NCBI RefSeq assembly: GCF_010093445.1
Contig: NZ_PDWW01000001.1
Coordinates: 62,001-126,000 of the forward strand
Reading direction: 5' to 3'
From: Pseudoxanthomonas japonensis
Lineage (GTDB): Bacteria > Pseudomonadota > Gammaproteobacteria > Xanthomonadales > Xanthomonadaceae
Length of the DNA stretch: 64,000 bases
The notes beneath the pieces are model-generated. The model saw only the letters and a program-made list of their open reading frames with translations, made no database searches and was not told the origin of the DNA. Of the stretch, positions 4,424 to 6,443 are shown in pieces. Position 1 is the first letter of the stretch. Every line of letters starts with the position of its first letter. Both the position numbers and the translations under genes were made by a program.

Positions 4424-5113
4424 ATGACGGAACGCCTTCCCGTCCTGCTCGCCTGGAGCGGCGGCAAGGATGCCGCATGGACGCTGCACACCCTGCGCCG
4501 GCGCGATGACGTCCAGGTGGTCGGCCTGCTGACCACGATCACCCGCGAGTACGATCGCGTGTCCATGCAGGGAATACGCCGCACGGTGCTGCACGCCCAG
4601 GCGCAGGCGACCGGCCTGCCCCTGATCGAGGCGACGATTCCCGCAAACTGCATCAACGACGACTACGAGCGGGCGATGGCGGCCGCGCTGGCGGACGCCG
4701 CCCGCCGCTGGCCGACGCTGCGCACGGTCGCGTTCGGCGACCTGTTCCTGGACGACATCCGCGCCTACCGGGTGCGGAACCTGGCGAAGATCGGCTGGGA
4801 CGTGATGACGCCGCTGTTCGGTGCGGATACCGGCGTACTGGCGCGGGAGATGATCGCTGGCGGGCTTCGTGCCCGGCTGTGCTGCGTGGATACGCAGCAA
4901 CTCGACATCGCGTTCGGCGGCCGCGCCTTCGACGAGACGCTGTTGCGCGATCTGCCCGCGGAGGTCGATCCCTGCGGCGAGAACGGCGAGTTCCACACCT
5001 GCGTCTCGGCCGGCCCGATGTTCGACGCGCCGCTTGCGCTGCTACAGGGCGACACCGGACTGCGCGATGGGCGCTTCGCGTTCACCGACTTCGAGCTTGC
5101 GGATGCCTCGTAG
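4424..5113 (+). CDS. PP-loop ATPase of the DUF71/diphthine-ammonia-ligase type
   Basis: This 229-residue protein carries the PP-loop SGGKD near residue 13 (LAWSGGKDAAWTLH), which binds the ATP pyrophosphate, and the C-terminal family signature DPCGENGEFHT. This is the adenine-nucleotide alpha-hydrolase fold seen in Dph6 (diphthamide synthesis, eukaryotes and archaea). Bacteria lack diphthamide, so the bacterial members must act on another substrate; some neighbour B12 transport genes, none of which are seen here. The stop codon TAG (5111-5113) coincides with the first three bases of the tandem repeat that follows, so the 3' end may have been reshaped by the repeat. Confidence 0.82.
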   Translation: MTERLPVLLAWSGGKDAAWTLHTLRRRDDVQVVGLLTTITREYDRVSMQGIRRTVLHAQAQATGLPLIEATIPANCINDDYERAMAAALADAARRWPTLRTVAFGDLFLDDIRAYRVRNLAKIGWDVMTPLFGADTGVLAREMIAGGLRARLCCVDTQQLDIAFGGRAFDETLLRDLPAEVDPCGENGEFHTCVSAGPMFDAPLALLQGDTGLRDGRFAFTDFELADAS

Positions 5114-5490
5114 GGTGGGCCTCGGCCCACCATCGCCATCCCGCACACACCGACGGCCAGGACGGCGGGCTTGAGCCTGCCCTACGCGCTCCAATGCCTT
5201 CGCGTGATGCGCGATGTACGCCACCCGCTTTTCCGTAGGGTGGGCCTTGGCCCACCATCGCCATCCCGCATACACCGACGACCAGGACGGCGGGCTTGAG
5301 CCCGCCCTACGCGCTCGAATGCCTTCGCGTGATGCGCGATGTCCTCGCCACCCGCTTCCGTAGGGTGGGCCTCGGCCCACCATCGCCATCCCGCATACAC
5401 CGACGACCATGACGGCGGGTTTGCCCCCCTACGTGGTCAATGCTTTCGCGTGGTGCGCGATGTGTTCACCGATGAAGCTGGCGATGAAGT
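5111..5490. repeat. Three-copy 125-bp tandem repeat with paired hairpins and fghA-tail copies
   Basis: Units begin with TAGGGTGGGC at 5111, 5236 and 5361, an exact 125-base spacing. Each unit has a 71-74 bp core bounded by TAGGG and CCCTA (5111-5184, 5236-5309, 5361-5431). The core contains two hairpins, GGTGGGCC/GGCCCACC and GGCGGGCT/AGCCCGCC, like a REP doublet. Cores 1 and 2 are followed by about 50 bases, of which the first 30 or so match the end of fghA. After core 3 the same stretch is the real fghA coding end. Both flanking genes take their TAG stop from a core end (5111-5113 for the upstream gene, 5429-5431 on the minus strand for fghA). The region between the two genes (5114-5428) contains nothing else. 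Confidence 0.9.
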
Positions 5491-6265
5491 AGTAGCTGTG
5501 GTCGTAGCCGGGCTGCAGGCGCAGCGTCAGCGGATGGCCTGCAGCGTCGGCTGCAGCCTGCAACAGCGTCGGCTTCAGCTGCGTTTGCAGGAACTCGTCC
5601 GCATCGCCCTGGTCGACCAGCAACGGCAACCGTTCGGAGGCATTACGGATCAGTTCGACGGCGTCGTACTGCTTCCAGGCTTCGCGATCGTCGCCGAGAT
5701 AGGCGCCGAATGCTTTCTCGCCCCACGGCACCTGCGATGGCGCCACGATCGGCGAAAACGCCGAGACGCTGCGGTAGCGACCGGGATTCTTCAGCGCGAT
5801 CGTCAGCGCGCCGTGCCCGCCCATCGAGTGTCCGCTGATGCCTCGCGCATCGGTCACGGGGAAATTCGCTTCGATCAGCGCCGGCAGTTCGTCGACGAGG
5901 TAGTCGTACATGCGGTAGTGCGCCGCCCACGGTGCCTGCGTGGCGTTGACATAGAAGCCAGCCCCCTTGCCCAGGTCGTAGCCGTCGGCATCGGCGACAT
6001 CATCGCCGCGCGGACTGGTATCCGGGGCGACCAGGATCACGCCGTGCTCGGCGGCGTAGCGCTGCGCGCCGGCCTTGGTGATGAAGTTCTGTTCCGTGCA
6101 GGTCAGGCCGGAGAGCCAGTACAGCACCGGCAGCTTCTGCGTTGCAGCTTGCGGCGGCAGATAGACGGCGAACCGCATGGTGCAGCCGAGGCTGCTGGAT
6201 GCGTGTTCGTGGACGTCCTGCCAGCCGCCATGCATGGCGCGGTGTTCGATGCGTTGTAGTGTCAT
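5429..6265 (-). CDS. fghA: S-formylglutathione hydrolase
   Basis: This 278-residue esterase-D family enzyme hydrolyses S-formylglutathione to formate and glutathione, the last step of glutathione-dependent formaldehyde detoxification. The catalytic triad can be read by comparison with human esterase D: Ser147 in GHSMGG, Asp223 in DQGDADEFL and His256 in GYDHSYYF. The family C-terminal HHAK is also present ([11 protein letters not shown]). I chose the ATG at 6265 because it begins the conserved [16 protein letters not shown]; the frame runs further upstream only through repeat DNA. It lies downstream of adhC, separated by 178 bp of hairpin repeats. Its last 30 or so bases are copied in the tandem repeat beyond its stop. 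Confidence 0.96.
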
Positions 6266-6281
6266 GGTGATTCCCGTGTTC

Positions 6282-6431
6282 CCTTCTCCCGCCGAGAAGG
6301 TGGCGCGAAGCGCCGGATGAGGGTTCGGCGAAATAGGGAGGGCTACTCGATGCGAAACGCTGCAGGAAGCGCGGCGTCCGACCATCGGGATGTCGCCGCA
6401 CCCTCACCCCAACCCATCTCCCGGGGGGAGA
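6282..6431. repeat. Inverted pair of short hairpin repeats between adhC and fghA
   Basis: The left element has a 7-bp stem CCTTCTC/GAGAAGG (6282-6300), a 5-bp stem GGCGC/GCGCC (6302-6314) and ends GGATGAGGG. The right element starts ACCCTCACCCC and ends with the stem TCTCCC/GGGAGA (6417-6431). The outer features are complementary in orientation, so the two look like inverted copies of one intergenic repeat. They fill most of the 178-bp spacer inside the frm gene set and could attenuate or stabilise the mRNA. Confidence 0.65.
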
Positions 6432-6443
6432 GGGGCTCGAGCG

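Follow-up and report, generated by a model that had tools for sequence, protein, structure and literature searches.

Architecture of the fghA-dph intergenic array

The window analysed in this study is a 64,000 nt stretch of the Pseudoxanthomonas japonensis genome. Within it, the slot between two convergent genes, a dph-like gene on the plus strand and fghA on the minus strand, is filled by 125 bp units arranged head to tail. Tandem Repeats Finder assigns to positions 5109-5463 a period of 125, 2.9 copies and 90% matches. The features of this locus are listed below, wherein G018 is a related genome that carries one dimer at the same site.

4424..5113, plus strand: dph-like ORF (ORF and sequence; Pfam Diphthami_syn_2, PF01902, E=7e-19); TAG stop from the GTAG foot of dimer A
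5110..5185, no strand: REP dimer A (GTAGGGTGGGCCTCGGCCCACC ... GGCGGGCTTGAGCCTGCCCTAC); 66/76 aligned positions common to the G018 single dimer
5186..5222, minus strand: fghA tail copy 1, between dimers A and B (core search, alignment, register test)
5223..5234, no strand: 12 bases clearly like neither flank (by-eye comparison)
5235..5310, no strand: REP dimer B; 68/76 positions common to the G018 dimer
5311..5349, minus strand: fghA tail copy 2, between dimers B and C, EDIAHHAKA readable (core search, alignment, register test)
5350..5359, no strand: 10 bases clearly like neither flank (by-eye comparison)
5360..5432, no strand: REP dimer C, adjoining fghA, with its fghA-side REP degenerate and shortened; 60/73 positions common to the G018 dimer
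5429..6265, minus strand: fghA, S-formylglutathione hydrolase, source of the tail copies (Esterase, PF00756, E=6e-71); TAG stop at 5429-5431 in the foot of dimer C

Each unit contains two different inverted GTAG palindromes, GTAGGGTGGGCC..GGCCCACC on the plus strand and GTAGGGCGGGCT..AGCCCGCC on the minus strand, that together constitute a REP dimer. Specifically, both GTAGGGTGGGCCTCGGCCCACC and GTAGGGCGGGCTCAAGCCCGCC carry a 5′ GTAG beside a palindrome with an 8 bp stem, which identifies them as GTAG-type REPs; the REPs are paired in inverted orientation, and the dimer recurs with its flank as a direct repeat. A preliminary description of this DNA had proposed a single REP-like palindromic core per unit and an array extending over 5111-5490. 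The REP-like character of the core and the number of three units hold, but the core is a dimer of different inverted REPs (GTAGGGTGGGCC.. and GTAGGGCGGGCT..), and the three tandem GTAG-type dimers occupy 5110-5432, beyond which lies fghA.

The dimers are not equally preserved. The GTAGGGCGGGCT..AGCCCGCC palindrome is degenerate in unit C and has one mismatch in unit A, such that the degenerate REPs are the fghA-side member of dimer C and one member of dimer A. Compared with G018, the fghA-adjoining dimer C is the most degenerate (60/73, against 66/76 for A and 68/76 for B). The outermost GTAG feet supply the TAG stop codons of dph and fghA alike, as had been proposed for the ends of the core. 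Similar genes on plasmids are annotated as fghA or S-formylglutathione hydrolase, and among the matches listed the plasmid search returned only fghA genes, at 75% identity. On the other side of fghA, at 6279-6437, we noticed by eye an apparent dispersed intergenic repeat of another kind (CCCTTCTCCC..GGGGAGAGGG..GATGAGGG type), which other REP arrays also seem to carry in their linkers (L124 11662-11997 and L125 2092-2724).

Linkers copied from the fghA 3′ end

The two stretches that separate the dimers resemble the end of fghA. A search of the window with a 26-base tail core, allowing up to 3 mismatches, located it at 5192, 5317 and 5438, the last being fghA itself, with 0-1 mismatches; none was found in 100 shuffles. 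A 24-base core with at most 3 mismatches has three matches in the window's own genome (G000; 4,075,313 bases, 4.08 Mb), all at this array, and 0 in the reversed control of that genome. In addition, both tail copies outscore all 5000 random REP-free stretches when the 46 bases that precede the following GTAG foot are compared in register. When REPs were left in a pool of real stretches, 2 of 3000 scored at or above the tail, and with REPs masked and position left free the count was 0 of 5000. The core searches and the register test thus identify the inter-REP segments as derived from the 3′ end of the adjacent gene, and the shuffles, the genome search and the random stretches rule out chance resemblance. 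These results bear out the earlier proposal of a tandem 125 bp array that incorporates fghA-end sequence. They also refine it: the proposed peptide IAHHAKA is readable, as EDIAHHAKA, in copy 2, but the EDIAHHAKAFERV reading falls out of the fghA frame towards its end because the tail copies have a one-base insertion.

Because the tail-like stretch is present in both linkers of the array, it might belong to the repeat element itself, with fghA resembling it by chance or recombination. When the whole 125-base unit was compared with the G000 genome, 36 places matched, of which only the three units at this locus cover the tail; one other match, 80% identical, extends to position 97 of 125. Since the tail core is confined to this locus while other REP copies lie elsewhere, the tail is not part of the repeat, as the preliminary description had maintained. 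Moreover, orthologous sites with a single dimer are without a tail copy, and a similar protein end is encoded by fghA orthologues that are without a window-type dimer. We therefore regard an element-borne tail as practically out of the question. An artefact of assembly is very improbable as well: the draft genome is split into 74 contigs, but the array is internal to a contig of 398 kb, and its three units are distinguishable by indels and by differences at several positions.

The fghA stop codon in related species

The fghA gene was found in all 38 genomes of the genus, and the region downstream was read in 30 loci, including that of the window. The window-type dimer abuts the fghA stop in seven of these (G000, G018, G028, G013, G032, G011 and G008). 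In every one of the seven the stop codon sits within the foot, as TAG in six and TAA in one; the foot in G008 reads CTAG. Over all 30 loci the fghA stops are TGA in 18, TAG in 9 and TAA in 3, and in 24 of them fghA is followed, at a distance of up to 1500 bases, by dph in the opposite orientation. A different GTAG family (GTAGGAGC..) occupies the fghA-dph slot in 5 of the 30 (G004, G005, G009, G029 and G037), and neither family is present at the stop or in the slot in the remaining 18, one of which (G019) has a window-type foot farther downstream. The GTAGGAGC.. feet (loci L021, L020, L022, L023 and L024, respectively) are unrelated to those of the window, as if the site had been re-used. Among 80 named loci, a list from which G000 and its closest neighbours are absent, none showed the window-type foot pattern at the fghA stop.

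Searching related genomes for the same site, as the preliminary description had recommended, revealed a single dimer in G018, G028, G032, G011 and G008 and two units in G013. The G018 site has one dimer with a spacer similar to that of the window, an identical 21-base junction with dph, and no fghA tail copy. In G028 one dimer is followed by a further REP-like module, which is a one-unit form of the module in G013. The latter species has two copies of a closely similar module with a diverged copy of its own fghA tail in between. At this locus (L135 3045-3300) the REP dimer that abuts the fghA stop is coupled to a palindrome of a third family (GTAGCGTGCGCC..), and the two have been duplicated together.

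Comparison of the fghA tail with the downstream region in 110 loci gave only one, that of G000, clearly above its own shuffles. The G013 tail was marginal (a score of 32, the best of its 200 shuffles reaching 30), and 107 loci did not exceed their own shuffles. The one other locus, L018, was slightly above (29 versus 27), and we regard its match, approximately 870 bases downstream, as chance. Against a pool of real stretches still holding REPs, 20 of 3000 scored at or above the G013 tail; with REPs masked, the counts were 11 of 5000 with position free and 0 of 5000 at the register fixed by the next GTAG foot. We take the G013 copy as real because its register fits and because the REP module repeats together with the tail. 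Given that the G013 unit differs from that of the window, this species probably underwent an independent duplication and tail capture at the same stop. A DNA tree of fghA (30 rows) left G000, G013 and G018 unresolved, and hence no two of them are called sisters.

Probable growth of the array from a single dimer

The single dimer of G018, with its similar spacer and identical dph junction, indicates that the array most likely started out with one dimer at the end of fghA. The base record of the tails was obtained by hand count on an alignment with G018, G028 and G013 as reference. At four positions the window copies keep older bases (GGC, GAG, AAG and GCG, versus GGT, GAA, AAA and ACG in fghA), the older GAG being kept in one tail copy only; of these four substitutions in fghA, three are synonymous. 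Since the copies keep bases that fghA has lost, they are relics of an earlier fghA end. Conversely, fghA keeps older states at about three positions that the copies have lost. The directional record that had been proposed thus holds in part: the copies preserve four older bases but fghA preserves about three others, and the order of the two duplications is not apparent from it.

The fghA-dph feature is a three-unit REPIN/BIME array, and we consider it likely that it grew from a single dimer by tandem duplication of a segment comprising fghA tail and dimer, probably through slippage or exchange. Initially, a lone GTAG dimer would have sat at the fghA stop and provided that codon through its foot. 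The segment would then have been duplicated in tandem in this lineage, and subsequently duplicated again, with number and order as we reconstruct them. The repeating unit includes the last 35-40 bases or so of fghA, and slipped-strand replication or unequal exchange near REP hairpins could copy any flanking sequence enclosed by the break points. With the complete gene retained beside the gene-proximal unit, fghA would stay whole after each duplication, and the event would presumably be harmless. Later changes in unit number could use the 125 bp repeats themselves, whereas the tail copies would drift as non-coding relics. The initial proposal that an element landed at the stop and was followed by two duplications agrees with the single-dimer orthologous sites; its first step finds no counterpart in a clean empty site among the loci read, and its count of two could also be one duplication followed by repeated exchange.

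Gene ends in other REP arrays

The window-type REP, at up to 2 mismatches, has 80 matches dispersed in the G000 genome, against 2 in the reversed control. Using the REP places found at this threshold in G000, G013, G018 and G028, we listed 147 arrays, 30 of which have at least two REPs in one direction, and compared their linkers with their flanks. The scores from 1740 cross-array comparisons had a 99th percentile of 30 and a maximum of 111, the latter because other dispersed repeats are common to the arrays. Eleven of the 30 same-direction arrays scored at least 30, and copied gene 3′ ends were recognized in seven of the 30 tandem REP arrays from these four species. The captured ends are the following.

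G000 and G013: fghA (register test)
L252 1680-1800 (G028:C9): Y1_Tnp transposase gene, 121 bases spanning the stop (alignment, Pfam)
L251 (G028): carboxylesterase gene, approximately 120 bases (alignment, Pfam)
L264 (G028): gene for a DUF3817 protein, 62 bases (alignment, Pfam)
L237 (G028): gene for a DUF885 protein (alignment, Pfam)
L271 (G028): gene for a protein with a sub-threshold DUF7847 match and no Pfam family above cut-off (alignment)

The window array and that of G013 (L135) owed their survey scores to the dimer spacer or module; the fghA tails of both were examined separately in the register test. Array L247, with a score of exactly 30, is borderline and was left out of the seven. 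In the register test the numbers at or above per 5000 were 1 for L271, 5 for L247, and 4 and 127 for L237, in a null pool that contained the loci themselves, such that some of these counts are probably self-matches. We also left out L255, whose score came from the spacer; its tail is convincing by eye and gave 278 and 400 of 5000 in the register test. The scores of L124 at 11773 and of L125 reflect by eye another dispersed repeat, and L157, also among the 30, is without a linker to compare.

All seven captured parts are gene 3′ ends, and REPs mostly lie downstream of coding regions anyway (PMC3733652, in the part cited here). Within the surveyed stretches, the TAG of a REP foot accounts for the TAG stop in 49 of 105 cases (mechanical ORF ends, at least 100 codons, composition filter). 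For example, two tandem dimers at L136 1064-1349 (G000:C11:264500-266500) lie between genes that by eye are thioesterase-like and nicotinamidase-like, and both genes receive TAG stops from REP feet; no tail copy was detected there (scores 16 and 17).

A family-wide search of 395 genomes for tandem feet gave 8 genomes at one spacing and 5 at the other. We examined 22 of the 45 resulting loci plus 2 from another search. A central array is present in 22 of these 24, several of which overlap one another, and many have flank repeated in the linkers. With the ORF filter applied, only L292 among the examined loci has an ORF over the repeated flank; the flank there corresponds to the 5′ portion of a mechanically listed ORF and resembles a further palindromic repeat. 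L274 is a possible candidate, in that a 93-codon frame without a Pfam match enters its repeated flank. To judge from the survey, capture of gene ends is probably no rarity among the tandem REP arrays of the four species.

Slippage or a REP transposase

Two routes to such units deserve consideration, and we prefer slippage or unequal exchange near REP ends over amplification driven by a transposase. In L251, an octamer (CGCCCTAC) is seen by eye twice, once where the copied part begins within the gene and once at the outer edge of the last dimer, and TGCC follows it in both places. A short direct repeat of this type would be anticipated if slippage or unequal exchange had made the units. The junction of the fghA-dph array itself showed no clear short repeat shared in this way, and the 10-12 bases at the outer end of each linker match neither flank clearly.

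The alternative is that a RAYT/TnpA_REP enzyme makes the units, nicking single-stranded DNA 5′ or 3′ of a REP, whereupon rolling-circle or strand-transfer synthesis would lay down modules of flank plus dimer. This route is possible in principle because the genome encodes a candidate cognate REP transposase. The candidate is a Y1_Tnp ORF of 185 aa on contig C20 of G000, which barely passes the Pfam threshold (PF01797, 23.2 bits versus a cut-off of 23) and has tandem dimers of the window REP type on both sides (G000:C20:41000-54500; L124 1524-3000). Units of these GTAGGGCGGGCT-type dimer arrays are mostly of about 150 bp. The same genome has a second Y1_Tnp match (G000:C7:17000-21000; L193 1680-2330), flanked by a different GTAG palindrome (GTAGGAGCGACGTAAGTCGC), and thus seems to hold two RAYT/REP pairs.

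TnpA_REP is described as cleaving between C and T beside REPs, with some sites distant (PMC8266576, in the portion cited), and the gene-internal start of the L251 copy can by eye also be read as such a site. The published account of BIMEs likewise proposes the enzyme and places rayt gene ends between REPs (Nunvar et al., in the sections of PMC2817692 relied on here). However, the captured fghA tail is without a REP on its gene side to bound the module, the L264 copy by eye holds some 17 bases past the REP foot and has its C-T step on the strand opposite to the REP, and the C-T reading is based on very few junctions. We judge enzyme-made units to be rather unlikely, and slippage or exchange remains the preferred route. 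Also unlikely, in our estimate, is the broader generalization that REP arrays in the genus regularly copy gene 3′ ends, perhaps via a REP transposase cutting between C and T, leaving many dated fossils of C termini, with fghA copied independently in two species.

Possible function of the array

The array could plausibly act as a terminator, an RNA-end stabilizer or a translational brake on fghA. That it has been kept for such an action on RNA, be it as a bidirectional terminator, a 3′-end stabilizer or a brake on fghA translation, would be compatible with growth by tandem duplication, and we hold it as a tentative possibility. On either strand, folding of the array is stronger than in any of 100 shuffles (z -3.9 and -4.1), a property for which the palindromes by themselves account. 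Translation in E. coli can be reduced by REPs that lie less than 16 nt from a stop codon (PMC12306157, in the part of that report drawn on here). The window-type dimer abuts the fghA stop in 7 of the 30 loci and a different GTAG family is in the slot in 5, but 18 of the 30 are without either family there.

Relation to known repeats and significance

Mycobacterial MIRUs are tandem intergenic units that overlap the stop codons of neighbouring genes, as in the fghA-dph array; unlike that array, they are not known to be REP-based. Closer parallels exist among REPs. The SMAG elements of Stenotrophomonas maltophilia are GTAG-tagged REP monomers and dimers that recur in tandem along with adjacent DNA; at one locus the units measure 103 bp, a 72 bp dimer plus 31 bp of flank, and unit number varies between strains (Roscetto et al. 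2008, PMC2613905). Tandem GTAG dimers with flank are thus common to SMAG and the fghA-dph array, whereas the part of that report cited here does not state a gene end as flank. REPIN tandem units comprise a flank f1, the REPIN and a second, shorter flank (f2), and successive units are separated by a few bases that are not repeated (Bertels and Rainey 2011, PMC3116915); those clusters are built of Pseudomonas REPs, and the cited portion does not mention gene ends as a source of flank.

GTAG REP families form clusters in tandem with flanking DNA and supply TAG stops to flanking ORFs (Di Nocera et al. 2013, PMC3733652, in the excerpt considered). The fghA-dph array shares with them the GTAG foot, the tandem flanking DNA and the TAG stops, a likeness of features and not an assignment to a numbered family. 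Four rayt gene ends captured between REPs in BIMEs are described in the relevant part of Nunvar et al. 2010 (PMC2817692). The likeness lies in a gene 3′ end joining the inter-REP segment; the difference is that those cases capture the transposase gene itself, whereas the array described here captures the end of a metabolic gene, fghA. The transposase tail captured at L252 in G028 is of the kind reported there. Because tandem REPs with flank, TAG stops and the capture of rayt ends have been published, we regard the array as a well-resolved instance of a known phenomenon. No description of captured ends of genes other than rayt was found in the literature searched, to the extent that the sources cited cover the subject, and among the matches listed for gene tails in tandem repeats generally there was nothing relevant.

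For genome annotation the array calls for caution, in that spurious ORFs arise from tail copies. For the biology of REPs, the fghA-dph locus is a polarised case of array growth, with a single-dimer relative, a multi-unit derived state and a known source gene, and a second case exists at fghA in the related species G013. The junctions of captured gene ends offer material with which slippage and transposase models may be told apart.
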